Source: Bacteroidota bacterium
Lineage (GTDB): Bacteria > Bacteroidota > Bacteroidia > Chitinophagales > Chitinophagaceae
Reading direction: 5' to 3'
NCBI GenBank assembly: GCA_005800655.1
Contig: SYEV01000038.1
Location: 1 to 56,529, forward strand
DNA length: 56,529 nt
Within the stretch, counting starts at the first letter, position 1; the number at the start of each line of letters is the position of its first letter. The notes under the pieces were generated by a model. That model saw only the letters and a list, made by a program, of their open reading frames with translations, had not been told where the DNA came from and made no database searches. Position numbers and translations under genes: made by a program. This document shows, piece by piece, positions 28,334 through 56,529 of this stretch.

Positions 28334-28354
28334 TGTGACTAAGAATGGCGAAGC
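28334..28354 (+). promoter_or_regulatory. Leader motif copy 1 (GACTAAGAA ... GCGAAGC)
   Basis: 21-nt block sharing GACT(A/C)AGAA and GCGAAGC (28348-28354) with the copies at 50014 and 55741, without gaps. It lies 61 nt before the lipoprotein that opens the polysaccharide locus, in what should be the 5' untranslated leader. Possibly an ops-like recruitment or pause element (inference). Confidence 0.6.
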
Positions 28355-28415
28355 ATTATAAAAAATTATAATATACCAACAAGGTTAGGAATACCTAAAA
28401 TCATAAAAATCAATT

Positions 28416-29084
28416 ATGAACATTCAAACAGTTACAAAAAAAGCTCAAATAATTATCACAATATCGTTGCTCATGTTAGTAATGGGATGTGCAAAGTCGG
28501 GATATAACGAAGTGATGGTTTACAATAATAATTTTAAATCAGGATCAACCGATAAATTAACGGGCGCTATCTTATATAAAAACAATGGCGAGTATTTAAT
28601 AGGTCGTTATAATAAAAATGGGTTTACCATAAATCTGGATAATTTACCAGCGCATCAAGCAATAGAAATAATCGCGGAACCGCGCTTTCATGATAGCTGG
28701 GATGGCAACAATAATTATGGTGGTATAGATGGTCCAGATATTTGGAATATCAATATGGATGGAACAACGGTGTTAAATGCAACTTTTTCTAATACACCAT
28801 GTAATTCAATTTATTGTTTATATCAATCTTACCCAGCAGATTATGGTTTAATCAATAATCCACCTAAAACTGGTGCTTATATGGATATTGCAGGTATATG
28901 TCATATGGCAGATGTATTTAAAACTTCAGTATATAAAATTGATAAAACAATAAAACATAGTGCTTCAAAAGTAACTATAAGTTTTAAAGATTTGTTGGTT
29001 CAAAAAAATGTTGCGGATCAAATGTGCGATGAATCATGGTCTATGGGAAGTTTAATTATCAAAATAATTAACACACCAGAGTAA
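28416..29084 (+). CDS. Lipoprotein of unknown function heading the polysaccharide locus
   Basis: 222 aa. A lipoprotein signal (IIITISLLMLVMGC, Cys25) is followed by a beta-rich domain with many aromatic and glycine/asparagine turns: HDSWDGNNNYGGIDGPDIWN, then MDGTTVLNATFSNTPCN, QSYPADYG and a final MGSLIIKIINTPE. Four or more cysteines (CNSIYC, GICHMAD, DQMCDE) could form disulfides in the periplasm. The WDG/DIW/TFSN pattern resembles beta-sandwich or jelly-roll modules attached to Bacteroidota surface proteins, as far as I recall. The first leader-motif copy is directly upstream and the flippase gene follows after 57 nt. It may bind glycan or act at the outer membrane; neither can be shown from sequence. 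Confidence 0.65.
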   Translation: MNIQTVTKKAQIIITISLLMLVMGCAKSGYNEVMVYNNNFKSGSTDKLTGAILYKNNGEYLIGRYNKNGFTINLDNLPAHQAIEIIAEPRFHDSWDGNNNYGGIDGPDIWNINMDGTTVLNATFSNTPCNSIYCLYQSYPADYGLINNPPKTGAYMDIAGICHMADVFKTSVYKIDKTIKHSASKVTISFKDLLVQKNVADQMCDESWSMGSLIIKIINTPE

Positions 29085-30389: not shown

Positions 30390-31941
30390 GTTATTTTTTA
30401 TATTTTTTATATTTCCATTTGTTGTAAAAGCACAAACGGATTTTAAGCAGGATAATTATATTCTCACTAAAAATTTATGGGGAGATAGTTCAAAATTTGG
30501 AACAGTTAAGCTATATAAAAAAGATAGTATCCAAGTAAGATGGGTGCCCTTCTTAAACAAATTGCAATATGTACAAGCACATCCCTATAACTGGAATGAT
30601 GGCGCAATGGTTCCTGCAAAAGGGTGGCAACAATTTATACGAGCAGGGGTAAATGCACAATGGAAGTTTGTTGAAGTACAAATAGCCCCAGAAATGGGAA
30701 TGGCGCAAAATCAATTATTTGATGGTCTGCCCTTAGATGCAGATGAAGTATTGTGGCGTGATTATTACCGTTTTTATAATTTTATTGAGTTGCCAGAACG
30801 CATGGGGGATAATCCTTATAAAAAAATGTCTTGGGGGCAATCTTATTTAAAATTGCATTATAAAAATTGGCAGGTAGGGCTATCAAATGAAAATAAATGG
30901 TGGGGTCCTGCACAACGCAATGCATTATTGCTTTCAAATACCGCGGCAGGATTTCCGCACATAACTTTAGGAACTAGCAAACCGGTCAATTCAAGAATCG
31001 GAAATTTTAATATTGAACTCATCACTGGTAAGCTCACCAATGGTGGATGGTTGCCGCCTAGTATTTTTATGCCATTACGCGGCAATCAGTTATTTTTTCC
31101 AAAAGAAAATAATACCAGAATAATTAATGGTATAAATATTAGCTATCAACCCAAATGGTTTTCAAACTTACATATTGGTTTTGAACAAACCCATGTTCAG
31201 TATCAAAAAGATATGACCAAATGGACGGATTATATACCAGTCAAAAATATTTTACATAATATCCCTGATGATGGAATTATAAAACCCATTATACTAACAG
31301 CATTTTATTTTAATTACACCATGCCAGAGGCTAACACCACAATATATGGTGAAGTGGGATGGAATTTACAAAGAACAAGTTTGAGAAATTGGGTATTACA
31401 ACCCGATAAAGGATACGCAAGTACCTGGGGGATTAAAAAAATATTCACCACTACCAAAAAACATTATTGGGAACTATTGGGTGAACTAACGCAAGTGCAA
31501 TTGTTAACACGCGCCGAACAATTTAGTACAGATATTCCGACCAGCTGGTATTTGGGATCGCATGTAAGGCAAGGCTATACGCATGATGGACAATTATTAG
31601 GCGCGGGCGTAGGTCCTGGCGGCTCCTCACAAACTGTTGAATTTAATTGGCGAAAAAATAATAATCGAATAGGTATTACAGGGGAAAGACGCGTGCATAA
31701 CAATGACTACTATCAATTAGCCTATGCAGCATCAGGACAGTTTAAACAATACTATGTTGATTTTATCACTACCCTCAAAGTTGATTGGCGTATAAAAAAA
31801 TATACAATCGGCCCAAGGGTAAGTTATATGCAAACCAATAATTACCAATGGGAGTGGTTTCCTACTAAAAAAACGGGATGGATTCCTGGCCGAGATATAC
31901 AACAGGTAATGTTACAGTTCAACTTGCAGTACGATTTATGA
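30376..31941 (+). CDS. Wzi-like capsule assembly outer-membrane protein (paralog 1)
   Basis: 521 aa from TTG 30376, which gives the signal peptide MQKIKLFFIFFIFPFVVKAQ and a 14-nt overlap with the flippase. A TTG at 30358 adds six residues. No ATG fits. The mature chain is a beta-barrel type with the Wzi family blocks LHYKNWQVGLSNENKWWGPA, LLSNTAAGFPHITLG, and WLPPSIFMPLRGNQLFF. Known Wzi is an outer-membrane lectin that anchors capsule at the surface. This is one of three paralogs in the locus (also 33972 and 44310). Confidence 0.8.
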   Translation: MQKIKLFFIFFIFPFVVKAQTDFKQDNYILTKNLWGDSSKFGTVKLYKKDSIQVRWVPFLNKLQYVQAHPYNWNDGAMVPAKGWQQFIRAGVNAQWKFVEVQIAPEMGMAQNQLFDGLPLDADEVLWRDYYRFYNFIELPERMGDNPYKKMSWGQSYLKLHYKNWQVGLSNENKWWGPAQRNALLLSNTAAGFPHITLGTSKPVNSRIGNFNIELITGKLTNGGWLPPSIFMPLRGNQLFFPKENNTRIINGINISYQPKWFSNLHIGFEQTHVQYQKDMTKWTDYIPVKNILHNIPDDGIIKPIILTAFYFNYTMPEANTTIYGEVGWNLQRTSLRNWVLQPDKGYASTWGIKKIFTTTKKHYWELLGELTQVQLLTRAEQFSTDIPTSWYLGSHVRQGYTHDGQLLGAGVGPGGSSQTVEFNWRKNNNRIGITGERRVHNNDYYQLAYAASGQFKQYYVDFITTLKVDWRIKKYTIGPRVSYMQTNNYQWEWFPTKKTGWIPGRDIQQVMLQFNLQYDL

Positions 31942-49421: not shown

Positions 49422-49921
49422 TTTAACGCCATTGCCACCATATTTAGGTCACTTAAAATATCAATATTTCTGTAACGATATTAATCATCTCTTTTACAGT
49501 TTTCAATATTTGCCCATTTTTAGCCTAAAATCCTCAAAAATTACCCCAAATTGCCTCTTTTAAGCTAAAAACTGTACTATTTCTCTTAATTACCATCAAT
49601 TAAAAGGAAATTTAATACCCCATCTCACAGGTAAATACCGATTTTAGAGGCTTGAATTTAAGTTTTTCGCCAATTTTAAGTTTATTCTACATTCACTACA
49701 ATAGTATAGCTGCAAAAACGTTATTAAAAGGACAGTTTATTTAAGTACATAATTAACATTAAATTAAGTATAAAAAATGATGCTTAACCAAATGTAAATA
49801 AGCACTGTATAAATTTTTTTTTGAGTAATTATTCGAGTACTTTTGTCTGATAAATCCACCCCCCTAAATTTATTGGTATGAATTTTAATATGCTTTGCTT
49901 GTTAAAACAAATACGAACCTA

Positions 49922-49971
49922 TTTTTAAGTACCACTTCATTTGTTTTATTGGCACTTAAAAATTGATTTTG
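49922..49971 (+). promoter_or_regulatory. Candidate promoter with inverted repeat for the second export unit
   Basis: TTTTTAAGT (49922-49930) and ACTTAAAAA (49954-49962) are perfect 9-bp inverted arms 23 bp apart. Within and beside them lie TTTG (49940-49943) and, 20 bp later, TGATTTTG (49964-49971), one base from TAnnTTTG. Transcription would begin near 49978, about 36 nt before the leader motif. Confidence 0.45.
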
Positions 49972-50013
49972 TACATATAAATAGTTGTTTATTAGCCCTT
50001 TTTGTATCTATAA

Positions 50014-50034
50014 TGGGACTAAGAAAAGCGAAGC
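50014..50034 (+). promoter_or_regulatory. Leader motif copy 2 (GACTAAGAA ... GCGAAGC)
   Basis: Ungapped 21-nt match to the copies at 28334 and 55741; GCGAAGC is at 50028-50034. It lies 54 nt before the start of the second SLBB gene, inside the expected leader. Confidence 0.6.
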
Positions 50035-50088
50035 TTTGCACAAAAATCAAACAACTCCCCTTTTAACGTTTAAATTTTCAAGATCACA

Positions 50089-52515
50089 ATGATAACAAAA
50101 GCAACATTCAAGCATTTTTTTCGCAGTTTAACCCTGGTCCTGTTATTTGCTATAATTGCCCAAACTGCTAACGCGCAAGGCTTTTTAGCCCAAAAGGACT
50201 TAAGCCAATTTAAAGTGGAAATGTTATCCGAAGCGGATATAAGCAAAATAAAGGAACGCTTACAAAGCTCCGAATTAAGCATTGATCAAATCAAAACACA
50301 GGCTACAGCAAAAGGCATGCCCGCAGCTGAGTTTGAAAAATTACGCACTAGGTTAAGTGCCACCAATAATTCTGTAAACAATATTGGAAATAAACTGGAC
50401 AATTTTAGTAATAACCGTACCATGCAAACAGGCAGTGATTCGGTGAGTAAAACTAATATTGAACAAAGCAATCCCATATTCGGATCCGAACTTTTCCAAA
50501 ATGCAGGTTCATTAACCTCTAATGCAAATATTGCTACTCCCTTAAATTACGAAGTAGGCCCCAATGATATATTAAAACTTGTTTTATACGGTATACAGGA
50601 ATTTGCGACTGAACTAAGAGTAAGTTATGAAGGCAGTGTAACCGTTCAAAACGTAGGTGTAATTCGAGTAGCAGGCTTAACCATTGAAGCAGCCACCGAC
50701 AAAATACGCCAACAAATGGCGCGCACGGCTTATGTAAGTTTACGTACAGGCGAATCTAAATTATCAGTGACTTTATCTAATATTCGCACTATACATGTGA
50801 CTATTATTGGTGCAAAAAAACCAGGCACCTATGACTTAAGTTCCTTAAGTACGGTGTTTAGTGCTTTGTCATTAGCTGGTGGTCCTTCTCCAATAGGTAG
50901 TTACCGTAATATTGAATTGGTGCGTAATAACAAAGTAATTCGTAAAGTGGATTTATATCATTTCATACTTAACGGGGATCAAACGGATAATATCGGATTA
51001 AAGGACAATGATGTAATTCGTATACCGGCTTATGAAAACCGCGTTGAATTGAACGGACAAGTAAAACGTCCAGGCATATTTGAATTAACAGGTAAGGAAA
51101 ATTTTCAAAACATTTTGGCATTTGCAGGTGGCTTTGATGAAGCAGCATATACCAGCAATGTAAAAGTGATTCAAAAAAATGGCCGTGAATTATTAGTAAA
51201 GGATTTAGGGAAAGAAGAATTTGCTAGCTATGCTCCCCAAGGAGGTGATGTTTATGTGGTGAGTAAAATATTAAACCGTTACCAAAATAGGGTAAAGCTA
51301 ACAGGTGCAGTATACCGTCCTGATACTTATCAATTGGTGGAAGGCATGCGCGTTTCGGATTTAATAAAAAAAGCTGATGGATTAAAGGAAGATGCTTACA
51401 CTGGAGGCGCTCAATTATTTAGATTAAAGCCCAACTTAGTTAAAGAAATGGTGAACATTGATTTAAACAAAGCATTGGCTGGAGACAAAACTGAAAATAT
51501 TTATTTGCAAAGAGAGGATGAGTTGTATGTAAGTTCGGTATTGGACTTACGTGATAGTTTTAATGTAAAAATATTTGGTGAAGTGCATAACCCAGGAAAG
51601 TTTACTTATGCTGATAGCATGACAGTGAAGGATTTAATTACACTTGCAGGTGGAAGCACATTTGCAGCGAATAAAAAAGTAGAAGTTGCAAGGTTATACA
51701 AACAACAAGACGGTAAAGTAAACAACACTGAAATTGCTACTTTGCTGACTACTGAGTTAGATGCCAATTTAAATTTCACCCCAGGCAATAGCGATATTAT
51801 CTTACAACCTTATGATGTAGTAAGTATTGCAAAAAGAGTAGGCTTTGCCGAAAATCAAATTGTATCTATTATTGGTCAAGTGCAATTTGCAGGCAAATAT
51901 AGTTTAGTGAGTAGGGTGGAAAGAGTGAGCGACGTAATAAAACGTGCAGGTGGATTAATTGGTGATGCCTATGCAAAAGGAGCCTTTATAAAAAGAGAAA
52001 GTATCAAAGCAGATACGGTATCACAATTGATGAAGGATAGCTTAAAGAAAATGGGCATTACCTATGAACTGCCATCTAATGTTCAAAACATTGCTTTAGA
52101 TATTGAACAAATTCTAAAAAATCCCGGCAGTTATTATGACTTGGTTTTAACTGATAAGGATGAAATTGTAATTCCTAAATTGGATAACAAAATAACTATT
52201 CGTGGCGGTGTGTTGAGACCTATAACGATTACCTACCATGAAGGCATCACCTTGGGCGAATGTATTAGTGCAGCGGGTGGTATTAACGAAAACGCAAGGC
52301 GCAATAAAGCTTATGTAGTGTATTATAATGGAAGATCAAAACGAACCAAAACATTTGGATTTTTTAGATTTAATCCACGCATTGAACCAGGATCGGAAGT
52401 GGTATTACCTGAAGGTGCAGTAAGAAAAGATGCAATGACAACGATATTGCAATATGTAACCATTATTGCACAAATAGGTACTTCACTTGCAACACTACAA
52501 TTGTTAAGCAAATAA
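50089..52515 (+). CDS. SLBB-domain polysaccharide export protein, copy 2
   Basis: 808 aa. Signal segment FRSLTLVLLFAIIAQTANA before Q; an N-terminal region that includes DISKIKERLQSSELSIDQIK; polysaccharide-export domain at about 155-245 (VGPNDILKLVLYGIQEF, VQNVGVIRVAGLTIE); and six SLBB-like repeats (IGAKKPGTYDL, NGQVKRPGIFELTG, TGAVYRPDTYQL, FGEVHNPGKFTY, IGQVQFAGKYSL, RGGVLRPITITYHE). The C-terminus again has a hydrophobic stretch. It is colinear with copy 1 at 46009, including the GSYRNIELVRNNK-type block, but clearly diverged. It carries leader motif copy 2 upstream. Confidence 0.9.
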   Translation: MITKATFKHFFRSLTLVLLFAIIAQTANAQGFLAQKDLSQFKVEMLSEADISKIKERLQSSELSIDQIKTQATAKGMPAAEFEKLRTRLSATNNSVNNIGNKLDNFSNNRTMQTGSDSVSKTNIEQSNPIFGSELFQNAGSLTSNANIATPLNYEVGPNDILKLVLYGIQEFATELRVSYEGSVTVQNVGVIRVAGLTIEAATDKIRQQMARTAYVSLRTGESKLSVTLSNIRTIHVTIIGAKKPGTYDLSSLSTVFSALSLAGGPSPIGSYRNIELVRNNKVIRKVDLYHFILNGDQTDNIGLKDNDVIRIPAYENRVELNGQVKRPGIFELTGKENFQNILAFAGGFDEAAYTSNVKVIQKNGRELLVKDLGKEEFASYAPQGGDVYVVSKILNRYQNRVKLTGAVYRPDTYQLVEGMRVSDLIKKADGLKEDAYTGGAQLFRLKPNLVKEMVNIDLNKALAGDKTENIYLQREDELYVSSVLDLRDSFNVKIFGEVHNPGKFTYADSMTVKDLITLAGGSTFAANKKVEVARLYKQQDGKVNNTEIATLLTTELDANLNFTPGNSDIILQPYDVVSIAKRVGFAENQIVSIIGQVQFAGKYSLVSRVERVSDVIKRAGGLIGDAYAKGAFIKRESIKADTVSQLMKDSLKKMGITYELPSNVQNIALDIEQILKNPGSYYDLVLTDKDEIVIPKLDNKITIRGGVLRPITITYHEGITLGECISAAGGINENARRNKAYVVYYNGRSKRTKTFGFFRFNPRIEPGSEVVLPEGAVRKDAMTTILQYVTIIAQIGTSLATLQLLSK

Positions 52516-52546
52516 TTATCCCCCCAATAGTTTAATACAAAAAATT

Positions 52547-53632
52547 ATGGTTGATCAAAATAATACACCCCAAATTGATAACGACGAAATATCGTTAAAG
52601 GAACTGGTGTTAAAAATAAAAGAGTGGTATCAGTTTCTATTAAGTCAATGGAATTTAATTGTACTTGCTGGCATCATTGGTGGATTGATTGGATTCACTT
52701 ATGCTTATTTTCAAAAGCCAACTTATAAGGCTGTACTTACTTTTGCCATGGAGGAAGAAAAAAGCGGTGGCGGAGGTTTGAGTGGCGCATTGGGTTTAGC
52801 TAGTACGCTAGGTATTGACTTAGGTTCAAGTGCGGGTGGCGCATTTGCAGGTTCTAATTTAATAGAGTTAATGAAGAGCCGAAAATTGGTTGAAAAAACA
52901 TTGTTATCTCCTATAACCGTAAATGGCAAAACACAAAGCTTGGCCGACTATTATTTGGAATTTAATGAAGTGAAAAAGAGTTGGGAGGAAAAACCGGCAT
53001 TAAAGGGCATTAATTTCCCTGTTGATGCAGATCGCGAAAAATTTACGCTACAACAGGATTCAATATTAAAAAATATTTCAACGGGGTTGGTAAAAACAGA
53101 CGTTGTTGTAAGTCAAAAAGATAAAAAAATTAGCATCTTAAGTATCGAAGTAAATTCAATCAATGAAAAATTTGCTAAAGCATTTTGTGAAACATTGGCA
53201 TTTGAAACTTCCGAATACTATATTGAAATAAAAAGCAAAAAGGCGCGCTTGAATGTTGAAATATTACAAAAGCAAACAGATAGTATCCGTGCCGAACTAA
53301 ATAGTGCAATCACAGGTGTAGCTAGCGCAGCTGACAATGTTTTTAATTTAAACATGGCTATGAATGTAAAGCGAAGCCCAGGTGCACGCAGGCAGGTAGA
53401 TGTACAAGCCAATACAGCGATGCTTACAAGTTTAGTAACAAATTTAGAAATGTCAAAAATGGCTCTTCGCAAGGAAACTCCATTGATACAGGTGATTGAT
53501 AAACCTATCTTTCCTTTGGAAAAAGAAAAAGTAGGTAAACTAAAGTCGCTGGTATTAGGAGGTTTTTTAGCCGGCTTTTTAACCATATTGTATTTAGTGT
53601 TTTCGAGTTTATATAAAAAATTGATCGCGTAA
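52547..53632 (+). CDS. Wzz-like chain-length/polysaccharide co-polymerase, copy 2
   Basis: 361 aa, the same length as copy 1. Membrane helix near residues 37-56 (LIVLAGIIGGLIGFTYAYF), glycine-rich GGLSGALGLASTLGIDLGSS after it, coiled-coil-prone region near 220-250 (LNVEILQKQTDSIRAEL), then VIDKPIFPLEKEKVG and a final helix (LVLGGFLAGFLTILYLVF). Motif order and spacing match copy 1, so the SLBB/Wzz pair was duplicated as a unit. The starting ATG gives a cytoplasmic N-terminus of about 35 residues. Confidence 0.88.
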   Translation: MVDQNNTPQIDNDEISLKELVLKIKEWYQFLLSQWNLIVLAGIIGGLIGFTYAYFQKPTYKAVLTFAMEEEKSGGGGLSGALGLASTLGIDLGSSAGGAFAGSNLIELMKSRKLVEKTLLSPITVNGKTQSLADYYLEFNEVKKSWEEKPALKGINFPVDADREKFTLQQDSILKNISTGLVKTDVVVSQKDKKISILSIEVNSINEKFAKAFCETLAFETSEYYIEIKSKKARLNVEILQKQTDSIRAELNSAITGVASAADNVFNLNMAMNVKRSPGARRQVDVQANTAMLTSLVTNLEMSKMALRKETPLIQVIDKPIFPLEKEKVGKLKSLVLGGFLAGFLTILYLVFSSLYKKLIA

Positions 53633-53684
53633 TTAATTAGCTTTTTTTAGGCTTTAAAAATAATTAATACAATCCCCCCGTTGT

Positions 53685-55631
53685 ATGATTCAACCAAAAA
53701 CAAACGTTATGTTTAAAAATTTTACTATTGTCCCTAGGTGGATTATATTTTTATTAGACATTGGGGGTACTTTGTTCTCGCTTTTCTTAGCCATTGCGAT
53801 AAAGCAAAACCTAACCTTAATTGGATTAAGCTGGGAAGCTGTATTTAATACATTTGTATTGGTTACTATAATTAATACATTGGTGTTTACTTCCATTAAA
53901 ACCTATTCAGGTATTGTAAGGTATACTGGTATACAGGATGCCTTTAGAATAAGCATATCTATTATTGCTTCAGCAGGATTTTTATTTGTAGTGAATAGTA
54001 TTTCAAATAGATATAGTCAGGAATTTACTTTAGGCTCGGTGGTTGTCATAGTTTATGCAGGATTTAGTTTTTTAATTTTAGTAAGCTACCGCGTACTAGT
54101 TAAGTTTTTGTTTGCTTATGCAAAAAACTACAAAATGAAAAAAAAGAGCGTCGTTATTTTTGGCGCTGCAGATACAGGTGTTGCTACACAAAGAGTACTC
54201 GAAAATCACGGAGGCAATAACATACATATTGTAGCATTTATTGATGACGATAAAAAGAAGAGCAATAAAAATTTAAATGGCATCCCTGTTATACGTTTTG
54301 AAGAATTTGTAAAAATTGCTACATTGCAACCTATTGATGAATTAGTTATTGCCAGCTTTACTATCCCTACAAAACGAAAAAATGAATTGGTTGATTTTTG
54401 TTTGGACCATGATATTAAAGTGTTAAGCGTACCTCCTTATAGCAAATGGGCAGAAGGTAAATTTAACAGCAACCAATTACAGACTACTAAAATTGAGGAT
54501 TTATTGGAGCGTGATCCTATTGTGATAAATAATAATCAAATCCGTTCCCAAATAAAAGGTAAGCGTGTATTAGTTACAGGCGCAGCTGGTTCCATAGGAA
54601 GTGAAATTGTTAGACAATTAATACCCTATGCTCCTGAAATGATTATTATGTGTGATCAGGCCGAAACCCCATTACATAATATTGAATTAGAATTACAAGA
54701 ACGCGGTACACGTGTAAACTGCATATCTTTTTTAGCGGATATCACGAATGAAAAAAGAATAGAGGGTTTATTTGAAAGTTTTAAACCGCATTATGTATAT
54801 CATGCTGCAGCCTATAAGCATGTACCTATGATGGAGCTTTGCCCTACTGAAGCAGTTCGTAATAATGTAATTGGCACTAAAATAGTTTCTGATTTAGCTG
54901 TAAAATACAATGCTGAAAGGTTTGTAATGATCAGTACCGATAAAGCGGTGAACCCAACTAATGTTATGGGTGCAAGTAAAAGAATGGCTGAAATTTACGT
55001 ACAAGGATTATCTAGTGAAAAAAATATAGCCACTAAATTTATTACTACTCGTTTTGGAAATGTACTTGGAAGTAACGGATCGGTAATTAATCGGTTTAAG
55101 GAACAAATTGAAAAAGGTGGACCATTAACGGTAACACACCCCAATATTACACGATACTTTATGACCATCCCTGAAGCTTGTCAATTGGTATTAGAAGCTG
55201 GTAGTATGGGTAATGGAGGGGAGATATTTGTTTTTGATATGGGTCAGCCGGTGGCTATTGCCGACTTAGCTAAAAAAATGATTCGTTTGTATGGTATGAT
55301 CCCGAATATTGATATTAATATTACTTACAGTGGTTTACGTCCTGGTGAAAAATTATATGAGGAATTATTAAACGACGCTGAAAACACCTTGGCCACTTAC
55401 CATGATAAAATATTGATTGCTAAAGTTAGGGAGGTGGAACTAACCAGCATTAATGAAAGCTTTAATGACCTTAGGTTATTAGTGACTTCGGCTTCCAAGG
55501 TATCCAATGAAATGGAACTGGTGGGTAAAATGAAGGAATTGGTTCCTGAGTTTATTAGCAATAATAGCATTTTTGAACGCCTGGACCCTAGCCTTCAAAC
55601 CAAGATATTGGATATGACGGGGGGGGGGTAG
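53685..55631 (+). CDS. WbpM/CapD-like nucleotide-sugar dehydratase with membrane domain
   Basis: 648 aa. Four N-terminal membrane segments to about residue 145, a first Rossmann domain (VVIFGAADTGVATQRVL, about 158-280) and a catalytic extended-SDR domain from about 295 with VLVTGAAGSIGSEIVRQL, YHAAAYKHVPMMEL and STDKAVNPTNVMGASKRMAE. The SxxK-type MGASK in place of YxxxK is typical of WbpM/FlaA1-like UDP-GlcNAc 4,6-dehydratases. It likely makes a deoxy-amino sugar precursor. ATG 53685 and 53709 are both possible starts. The gene ends in a run of ten Gs just before the stop. Confidence 0.9.
   Translation: MIQPKTNVMFKNFTIVPRWIIFLLDIGGTLFSLFLAIAIKQNLTLIGLSWEAVFNTFVLVTIINTLVFTSIKTYSGIVRYTGIQDAFRISISIIASAGFLFVVNSISNRYSQEFTLGSVVVIVYAGFSFLILVSYRVLVKFLFAYAKNYKMKKKSVVIFGAADTGVATQRVLENHGGNNIHIVAFIDDDKKKSNKNLNGIPVIRFEEFVKIATLQPIDELVIASFTIPTKRKNELVDFCLDHDIKVLSVPPYSKWAEGKFNSNQLQTTKIEDLLERDPIVINNNQIRSQIKGKRVLVTGAAGSIGSEIVRQLIPYAPEMIIMCDQAETPLHNIELELQERGTRVNCISFLADITNEKRIEGLFESFKPHYVYHAAAYKHVPMMELCPTEAVRNNVIGTKIVSDLAVKYNAERFVMISTDKAVNPTNVMGASKRMAEIYVQGLSSEKNIATKFITTRFGNVLGSNGSVINRFKEQIEKGGPLTVTHPNITRYFMTIPEACQLVLEAGSMGNGGEIFVFDMGQPVAIADLAKKMIRLYGMIPNIDINITYSGLRPGEKLYEELLNDAENTLATYHDKILIAKVREVELTSINESFNDLRLLVTSASKVSNEMELVGKMKELVPEFISNNSIFERLDPSLQTKILDMTGGG
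55619..55628 (+). repeat. Ten-G homopolymer at the 3' end of the WbpM-like gene
   Basis: Ten consecutive Gs encode the final Gly-Gly-Gly and abut the TAG stop. This is striking in AT-rich DNA. One G more would replace the end with VGTSKAN before a stop; one less gives RNF before a stop. Confidence 0.9.
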
Positions 55632-55665
55632 GAACTTCTAAAGCAAATTAATTGTTCTTTATCTT

Positions 55666-55726
55666 ACTCAATAATTATTAATTAAACTACTCAATATTGC
55701 GCTATATTTGTTGAAAAATATTGAGT
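55666..55726 (+). promoter_or_regulatory. Promoter with three ACTCAATA half-sites before the regulator gene
   Basis: TATATTTG (55703-55710) is a perfect TAnnTTTG -7 box. ACTCAATATT (55689-55698) and AATATTGAGT (55717-55726) form perfect 10-bp inverted arms around it with an 18-bp spacer, and a further ACTCAATA lies at 55666-55673. This looks like an operator array, possibly for autoregulation by the adjacent winged-helix protein (inference). No clear -33 TTG is present. Confidence 0.55.
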
Positions 55727-55740
55727 TTACATAATTAAAA

Positions 55741-55761
55741 TGTGACTCAGAAAGGCGAAGC
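55741..55761 (+). promoter_or_regulatory. Leader motif copy 3 (GACTCAGAA ... GCGAAGC)
   Basis: Third ungapped copy; GCGAAGC is at 55755-55761. It lies 35 nt before the regulator start and about 24 nt after the predicted transcription start. GAAGC (55757-55761) can additionally pair with GCTTC (55770-55774). Confidence 0.6.
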
Positions 55762-55796
55762 CGTCATATGCTTCCTCGAACATCTCATCTACCCCA

Positions 55797-56333
55797 ATGA
55801 TCTTAGATAAAATTTTTACTGGTAAAATAAGAGTGCAGTTACTCACCAAATTACTACTCAACCCCGCTAGCACAGTGTATTTGCGCGGTTTGGAACGTGA
55901 CTTAGGTGTAAGTAGTAATACAGTGCGTTTGGAATTAAATAAGTTATCGGACATGCAACTCATACAGGAGCAAACCGATGACGAAAACACAAAAACAAAA
56001 CATTACGCAGTAAACACAAAACACCCCATGTTTAAATCCTTGCGAGGTGTAATTATGCAATATGTTGGCTTGGATCAGATTATTGAGAATGTATTGGATA
56101 AGTTGGGTAATGTAGATGAGGTATACCTAACCGGAGATTTAGCTTTAGGAAAAAACAATCCCTTTGTGGATTTAGTAATAGTGGGTGATGTTGATAAGAG
56201 TTATTTATATCAGTTAATTGAAAAGGCGGAAACCTTGATTGATAAAAAAATACGCGTTGCCTTATACCAACCCCTAGAATTTACCGAGAAAATGTTGAAA
56301 GATGTTGGGGTGTTTATGAAGTTGATGGGATAG
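55797..56333 (+). CDS. Winged-helix regulator with degenerate nucleotidyltransferase-like C-terminus
   Basis: 178 aa, no signal peptide. Residues about 1-85 form a winged helix (VQLLTKLLLNPASTVYLRGL, then LGVSSNTVRLELNKLSDMQL as helix-turn-helix). Residues about 105-178 look like a minimal nucleotidyltransferase fold: VYLTGDLALGKNNPFVDLVI, then DVDKSYLYQLIEKAETLIDK. In active enzymes the pattern is G-S-x(8-10)-D-x-D; here the serine is replaced by Asp and only one Asp is kept, so catalysis is unlikely. I infer a DNA-binding regulator of the polysaccharide locus, perhaps sensing a ligand with the NTase-like part. Its own leader carries motif copy 3 and the ACTCAATA sites. Confidence 0.75.
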   Translation: MILDKIFTGKIRVQLLTKLLLNPASTVYLRGLERDLGVSSNTVRLELNKLSDMQLIQEQTDDENTKTKHYAVNTKHPMFKSLRGVIMQYVGLDQIIENVLDKLGNVDEVYLTGDLALGKNNPFVDLVIVGDVDKSYLYQLIEKAETLIDKKIRVALYQPLEFTEKMLKDVGVFMKLMG

Positions 56334-56341
56334 GAATTTGG

Positions 56342-56362
56342 ATTAGTGTGGTCCACACTAAT
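56342..56362. promoter_or_regulatory. Perfect 21-bp palindrome downstream of the regulator gene
   Basis: ATTAGTGTGG (56342-56351), centre T, CCACACTAAT (56353-56362): 10-bp arms without mismatch. It begins 9 bp after the regulator stop and 150 bp before the next gene. An operator for the next unit, or a terminator stem with weak U-tail (TTTGG), are both possible. Confidence 0.5.
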
Positions 56363-56511
56363 TTGGAGTATTCGCAGATAATCATAAATCATTAATAAGT
56401 TGAAAATCAAGTACTTTACATGTTTGATCTTTTGTTTATAGGTTACCAGAAAAGGTTGAAAAATAGGTTAAATGTGCGCAGTTTTGTGCGTTATTTTAAA
56501 GAATAATATAC

Positions 56512-56529
56512 ATGAAAAAAAATATCTTA
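56512..56529 (+). CDS. Start of a further gene, cut by the right edge
   Basis: ATG at 56512 opens MKKNIL, six codons up to the edge. Such an N-terminus is common to Rossmann-type sugar enzymes, but too little is present for any call. The 178-bp upstream gap with a palindrome supports a new transcription unit. Confidence 0.35.

Follow-up and report, generated by a model that had tools for sequence, protein, structure and literature searches.

The array and its surroundings

The window, by which we mean the whole 56,529-nt stretch of DNA analyzed here, corresponds to contig C20 of a genome of 1.9 Mb (88% complete) assigned to the Chitinophagaceae. Near its 3' end, a 165-bp gap separates a CapD-type gene (53685-55631) from an ORF of 178 amino acids (55797-56333), and this gap holds the repeat array that the initial annotation had singled out as operator-like. 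The genes and array elements are as follows.

50089..55631, + strand: genes of Wza, Wzz and CapD type for polysaccharide export/biosynthesis, 5' of the array
50089..52515, + strand: the Wza-type export gene among them, behind a second copy of the leader described below
55666..55673, + strand: ACTCAATA half-site 1, the outer direct copy, kept in some but not all close relatives
55688..55699, + strand: TACTCAATATTG, predicted operator core (half-site 2), conserved upstream of orthologs and the sole exact 12-mer in the genome
55703..55710, + strand: TATATTTG, probable -7 promoter box, fitting TAnnTTTG and kept in 5 of 10 close regions
55717..55726, - strand: inverted half-site 3 (AATATTGAGT), probably at the transcript start, located by the exact-copy and arm search and by alignment
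55797..56333, + strand: 178-residue winged-helix protein whose other domain resembles a degenerate MNT-like nucleotidyltransferase; it is the candidate regulator for the operator (family scores fall short of the cut-offs, and the model has pLDDT 59)

The array is exactly as first reported: two direct copies of ACTCAATA (55666-55673 and 55689-55696) and one inverted copy (55719-55726), the inner pair extending to perfect 10-bp arms, ACTCAATATT and AATATTGAGT, at 55689-55698 and 55717-55726. The arms lie 18 nt apart and bracket TATATTTG. Housekeeping promoters of Bacteroidetes carry a -7 element, TAnnTTTG, and a -33 element, TTTG or TTG, 17 to 23 bp farther upstream. A scan of 55677-55686 found no TTTG or TTG at this distance from TATATTTG, so the -33 half is absent here. 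The arms are just 10 bp long and their spacer 18 bp, and for this reason we did not adopt the reading as an invertible promoter of the kind found in Bacteroides.

We gauged the array against dinucleotide shuffles of the 165-bp intergenic region. Some 8-mer occurs three times, counting both strands, in 107 of 5,000 shuffles (about 2%), 10-bp arms within 40 bp occur in 62 of 5,000, and both features occur together in 10 of 5,000 (0.2%). The window has two further copies of ACTCAATA, both single, at 30783 and 43852, and five copies across its whole length are not unusual (12 of 100 shuffles). The array moderately exceeds chance, but figures of 2% and 0.2% are not decisive by themselves, and conservation has to decide.

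The half-sites are conserved upstream of winged-helix orthologs

To that end, we aligned the window's upstream region with those of 10 close relatives, and then collected those of orthologs down to 37% identity across the genus, family and order. Two loci with the gene at a contig edge (L019 and L022), three with less than 100 bp upstream (L002, L007 and L015) and duplicates, including L008, were excluded, which left 30 nonredundant regions of up to 260 bp. The comparison set comprised 109 upstream regions of 150 bp from other leader-bearing operons with a different first gene, and comparisons at equal length used the 150 bp from -190 to -40.

The half-site TACTC[AG] is present in all 30 ortholog regions and in just 1 of the 109 others. 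Restricted to -190 to -40, it is found in 28 of 30, with L017 and L021 carrying the site nearer the gene start. A stricter core, TACTC[AG].T.{1,2}TG, occurs in 19 of 30 regions versus 0 of 109 over equal stretches (P = 5e-16, with relatedness ignored). Twenty regions belong to orthologs at 75% identity or less, and 16 of these carry a strict dyad, GAGT-N9-ACTC (13 bp from start to start), while the next most frequent GAGT-to-ACTC spacing accounts for five pairs. A perfect TAnnTTTG starts 17 to 21 bp 5' of GAGT in 7 of the 16 dyad regions.

The strict dyad is found in none of the 10 closer regions (nonredundant, 84 to 100% protein identity, the window's included). The window clade has lost the left half of the dyad, and its half-sites are arranged as ACTC-23-ACTC-34-GAGT around the promoter, the pattern that the initial annotation had picked up; one relative, L013, carries a fused palindrome, ACTCAATATTGAGT. 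In these 10 regions TACTC is universal, whereas TAnnTTTG is kept in 5. The box that had been called a perfect -7 element does fit its consensus but is less conserved than the half-site. The expectation that half-sites would be kept upstream of orthologs was borne out in other genera and down to 37% identity. Symmetry was a mixed case: the half-site is conserved, mostly as a strict dyad in other genera, while the symmetry about the -7 box is a local rearrangement and not the unit that is conserved.

The 12-bp core TACTCAATATTG has a single exact match in the genome, which fits self-regulation. One-mismatch copies number 20, near the 12 matches of a reversed control, and we rejected them as further operator targets. 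From conservation and position, the view that the ACTCAATA half-sites are the predicted operator of the adjacent gene's own product is well supported, as is reading it as an ordinary autoregulatory site, which a dimer would bind and repress.

Another regulator could instead own the array, or the winged-helix protein could activate rather than repress, and the missing -33 element at 55677-55686 is what one would find at an activated promoter. The motif tracks the winged-helix gene (30/30 versus 1/109), which counts against another regulator though not against activation; together we consider these options unlikely. Very unlikely, in our estimate, is that the ACTCAATA/GAGT-ACTC dyad acts as a 5'-terminal hairpin in the RNA, in stability or attenuation, with no DNA operator involved. 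In seven distant orthologs the dyad starts 9 to 13 bp past TAnnTTTG and would be transcribed, and a few arms have U-G-compatible changes. Yet the half-sites of the window group are partly direct repeats, one of their arms precedes the -7 box, and L041, L088, L018 and L020 have TACTC with no dyad partner, so that no hairpin is common to all. A chance pattern in AT-rich DNA, for which the 107 of 5,000 shuffles would speak, is contradicted by conservation across genera and has a negligible probability.

A putative winged-helix protein with a degenerate MNT-like domain

The 178-amino-acid protein looks like a winged helix in its N-terminal half and is similar to MNT nucleotidyltransferases in its C-terminal half. 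Its score against Pfam NTP_transf_2 is 18.8 bits, below the gathering cut-off of 21, and its orthologs give weak PaaX, DeoR, GntR and TFIIE-alpha matches. In a structural model, residues 1-92 align with CzrA (Z 7.9) and residues 83-178 with an MNT antitoxin (Z 8.8), although the low confidence of the model (pLDDT 59) makes these fold matches leads only. The second acidic residue of the catalytic signature GS-x-DxD is missing from the conserved GDxAxGKxxxxxDL stretch, and we therefore read the MNT-like domain as probably ligand-sensing and inactive.

A winged helix and a dyad near the start site are shared with the autoregulated operators of the ArsR/MarR type, the CzrA alignment coming from the same weak model, but here the winged helix would be joined to a domain resembling a degenerate MNT-like nucleotidyltransferase. 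Few genomes have the gene: it is present in 17 of 194 of the family (E 1e-15). In other genera, upxY lies directly 3' of it at 8 of 15 loci (L088-L102).

A conserved leader element lies just downstream of the array

The initial annotation was right about the array but missed a more widely conserved element just downstream. It came to light in the upstream alignment as TGTGACTCAG...GGCGAAGCC, directly 3' of the array, and it starts 14 bp past it. We refer to this element, TGTGACTnAg-nnn-RGC-GNA-GCY-nT, as the leader. The window has three copies, all on the coding strand of the following gene.

55741..55764, + strand: ops-like leader TGTGACTCAGAAAGGCGAAGCCGT, with a mini-hairpin GGC-GAA-GCC at 55754-55762
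50014..50037, + strand: TGGGACTAAGAAAAGCGAAGCTTT, a second copy of the leader, 75 bp ahead of the Wza-type gene 50089-52515
28334..28357, + strand: third leader copy TGTGACTAAGAATGGCGAAGCATT, 82 bp before ORF 28416-29084

ORF 28416-29084 is followed by ORFs that, by appearance, are of flippase and polysaccharide types. The genome as a whole has five matches at up to two mismatches; C95:28042, which lies inside a coding sequence, and C86:7043 were not counted as real.

Within the genus sample, 63 of 121 genomes carry the leader at up to two mismatches, and a reversed-pattern control matches in 8. At up to one mismatch, 47 of 194 family genomes and 33 of 92 genera are positive, with 66 leader matches against 2 for the reversed control. 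A looser pattern found the leader in 58 of 296 genomes of the phylum; the control matched in 7, so some of the 58 are chance matches. Other classes of the phylum have a variant, TGTGACTGAA...RGCGRAGCTTT. In one of these classes (L189-L201) it is common in two genera (g151 and g156), with many G-T pairs at positions 14 and 22. Viral sequences gave no exact match to GTGACTNAGNNNGGCGAAGCC. Rfam, whose families include JUMPstart, yielded no match at gathering score over the window and none with E up to 5 over 49700-56529, and a known Rfam RNA element was accordingly rejected.

The array and the leader partly overlap in sequence, as ACTCA at 55745-55749 forms a partial fourth half-site inside the leader. 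Many regulator-linked leader copies contain ACTCA, which is possibly a fourth half-site that lets the regulator cover the leader.

The leader contains a predicted 3-bp, GNA-triloop hairpin

Most of leader positions 1 to 21 were held to one mismatch by the search pattern, which left positions 22 to 25 free, so invariance within the fixed part, including the GNA triloop in the family and genus census, is partly imposed. Across 117 distinct copies the consensus reads TGTGACT-N-A-G/C, three weakly constrained bases, R-G-C-G-N-A-G-C-Y, a free base and T. This last T (T24) is found in 113 of 117 copies. The base after it is G in 60 of 117 and C in the window copy, and the match to a pause site is therefore incomplete.

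Positions 14 and 22, the third pair of the predicted stem, covary. The 117 copies have G-C in 100, A-T in 8, G-T in 5 and G-A in 4, every A14 pairing with T22, a pattern matched by 0 of 5,000 shuffles. Both bases were free in the phylum search, and its 62 distinct copies have A-T in 26, G-C in 22, G-T in 10 and other combinations in 4 (0 of 10,000 shuffles). The loop is GNA in 60 of these 62, the middle loop base having been free in the search. Covariation is at shuffle level for positions 13 and 23 in both copy sets and for positions 12 and 24 in the 117 copies. Since these outer pairs do no better than shuffles, the common stem has 3 bp and closes on a GNA triloop, and we rejected a longer stem as a general feature. 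Individual copies differ, in that the 28334 copy has no third pair and the 50014 copy is able to fold a longer stem.

Standard energy rules do not clearly set the leader hairpin above shuffles in stability; two of the three window copies were uninformative, and the 50014 copy folded as DNA gives z -1.83. Passages of one study describe CGCGAAGCG and its relatives as extraordinarily stable DNA mini-hairpins (PMC10527192). One locus, L102, has a leader-like TGTAACTCAG upstream of its regulator gene in which TGCC-AAC-GGCA replaces GGC-GAA-GCC, with the stem kept and both strands changed.

The leader often follows promoter-like boxes and precedes polysaccharide genes

We took a census of 120 hits at up to one mismatch, distinct by a 60-base key; two-mismatch hits such as the 50014 copy were excluded. 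TAnnTTTG occurs 5' of 42 of the 120 leaders, against 12.3 expected and 3 for the reverse complement, and 33 of 43 boxes start 25 to 76 bp ahead of the leader. The fuller form, TTG-N17-23-TAnnTTTG, precedes 9 of 120. Given these positions, the leader most likely belongs to the 5' untranslated region. The distance from leader start to first ORF start has a median of 62 nt and quartiles of 45 and 97 nt.

An ORF of at least 80 amino acids starts within 400 nt of 114 of the 120 hits. These first ORFs include 42 Poly_export, 9 NusG (with the same number of UpxY matches) and 7 Polysacc_synt_2 genes. Matches to the window's Wza, Wzz, CapD, winged-helix or 28416 lipoprotein genes, or to the genome's UpxY, account for 74 of 114. 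The other 40 have no reference match, and several of them are other polysaccharide genes by appearance; three integrase-family and two four-helix-bundle (23S IVP) genes are not evidently so. The leader lies directly 5' of integrase-family genes at L072, L156 and L167, loci picked by sequence similarity, and three such first ORFs were counted. One genome, G256 (L145-L148), has five leader copies, four of which precede genes with no clear polysaccharide link; here either the element or the set of UpxY targets may have spread.

Several observations concern variability around the winged-helix gene. Assembly breaks are frequent within a few hundred base pairs of it (56334-56529 in the window; also L002, L004, L007, L008, L013 and L014), and the genes 3' of it differ in many relatives. 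The region past the gene is perhaps a junction where polysaccharide clusters are exchanged. One genome, G014, has the operator-leader-regulator module twice (L004 and L005), each with a protein 98% identical to the window's and each followed by different polysaccharide-type genes. On the other side of the array, the extreme end of the CapD-type gene carries a run of 10 G (55619-55628). This run is 9 to 12 G long in seven of nine relatives examined and absent in L010 and L013; because its length varies, the last residues and stop codon of the CapD-type gene shift between strains. It is possibly a slippage site or a neutral tail.

Leader-positive genomes nearly always encode UpxY

The genome has one detected UpxY (L027:1474-1992, contig C86), which scores 140.9 bits against NF033644, over the curated cut-off of 100. 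Its score against the RfaH model TIGR01955 is 67.4 bits, short of the cut-off of 144.5, and its nearest solved relative by sequence is RfaH (E 3e-6).

We compared the leader and UpxY genome lists of the family by eye. UpxY is present in 162 of 194 family genomes, including all 47 that are leader positive, and the leader is found in none of the 32 UpxY-negative genomes (hypergeometric P = 5e-5, with shared ancestry ignored). In the remaining 115 of 162 UpxY-positive genomes, the one-mismatch search finds no leader. We also checked, in two lots, every one of the 53 leader-positive phylum genomes outside the family. The first gave 22 of 22 over the curated cut-off; the second gave 26 of 31 over the cut-off and 29 of 31 at E 1e-18. 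UpxY is thus found in 51 of 53 at E 1e-18 or better and in 48 of 53 over the cut-off, three genomes having UpxY-like matches below the cut-off only. Leader-negative genomes of two of these families have UpxY in 9 of 18 (P = 3e-5 against 51/53 and P = 6e-4 against 48/53, again ignoring shared ancestry). The leader-positive family genomes and the other phylum genomes checked together give 98 of 100. Two leader-positive genomes gave no UpxY match. One, G514 (1.6 Mb, 96% complete), has a well-formed leader and is either a real counterexample or an assembly gap; the leader match of the other, G574, has a GAG loop and is perhaps a chance match.

Physical proximity was scored over 47 loci, and in 13 of them upxY lies on the leader's strand and no more than 1.5 kb away. 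A recurrent arrangement is seen in the same-class genus g120, where the order upxY, TATATTTGC, leader, nucleotide-sugar dehydrogenase occurs in 7 of 8 leader-positive genomes; TATATTTGC precedes the leader in 7 same-class loci.

A model of two-stage control

Our preferred reading, to which we assign a probability of about 0.7, is that an operator-controlled promoter feeds an ops-like recruitment signal for UpxY, giving two-stage control in front of an exchangeable exopolysaccharide operon. At the first stage, the ACTCAATA half-sites would be the operator of the winged-helix/MNT protein encoded just 3', whose dimer would most likely span the promoter spacer and the transcript start and repress its own operon. 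Transcription escaping repression would then reach TGTGACTnAg-nnn-RGCGNAGCY-nT, where RNA polymerase would pause, T24 forming the 3' end of the RNA. The non-template strand exposed there would fold into the GNA-triloop mini-hairpin and recruit a UpxY-family NusG paralog, which would carry polymerase through the long polysaccharide operon, in the manner of RfaH acting from ops. An autoregulated winged-helix/MNT protein may, in some lineages, gate entry to the leader-bearing operon.

UpxY, RfaH/ops and LoaP are already known. In E. coli, the leaders of long surface-polysaccharide operons likewise carry a short signal, and the exact ops sequence is not matched by the leader consensus RGCGNAGCYNT. 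Further likenesses to RfaH/ops are a GG...T spacing of 11 nt (G14 to T24 in the leader, the same length as G1 to T11 in ops), a very small non-template-strand hairpin and a NusG paralog in the genome. Unlike ops, which has a four-base loop with a flipped T, the leader has a GNA triloop and an additional conserved upstream block, TGTGACTnAG, and the proposed partner is UpxY rather than RfaH. The parts of PMC5995543 that describe ops give a C3:G8 pair, a G4-A7 loop and a T11 G12 pause dinucleotide.

The UpxY antiterminators of Bacteroides fragilis belong to the same family (NF033644) and have the same type of target operon, and passages of PMC7593976 place them inside the capsule operons that they activate. 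The UpxY found here is instead encoded on contig C86, apart from the window's three leader copies, and would act in trans. In the open-licence literature searched, we found no shared leader for UpxY.

The strongest competitor to our reading, possible but doubtful in our judgment, is that the leader works as RNA, with UpxY or another factor binding a nascent RNA hairpin instead of non-template DNA. The G-T combinations at positions 14 and 22 (10/62) are equally compatible with G-U, and the TGTGACTnAG part would, we infer, sit in or just outside the RNA exit channel. There is also a precedent in LoaP of Bacillus, a NusG paralog likewise paired with a small leader hairpin, which according to an excerpt of PMC12691694 binds the dfn RNA hairpin and reads it as a UNCG hairpin. 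The leader, however, has no UNCG tetraloop. Its 3-bp GNA-triloop stem stands in an ops-like pause register, its length and, in part, its register match ops, and covariation stops at 3 bp, which is short for RNA even if single copies such as that at 50014 fold longer.

A role for the leader in translation initiation or as a core-promoter element, unrelated to UpxY, could explain its median distance of 62 nt from the first ORF start as well as its presence in G514, which lacks a UpxY match. We regard this as quite unlikely given the variable leader-to-start distance (quartiles 45-97 nt), the skew of the following genes toward polysaccharide operons and the 98 of 100 leader-positive genomes with UpxY.

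Passages of PMC7593976 name E. coli RfaH as the only representative whose recruitment mode is known in detail; since then, LoaP has been tied to an RNA hairpin (PMC12691694). With a conserved leader co-occurring with UpxY, the recruitment question in Bacteroidota becomes directly testable through a 24-nt element. The leader also helps to flag polysaccharide operons in unannotated genomes, and the array provides a specific candidate operator with which a poorly known regulator family can be tested. Two layers of control at the head of one operon would allow polysaccharide clusters to be switched at both initiation and elongation.
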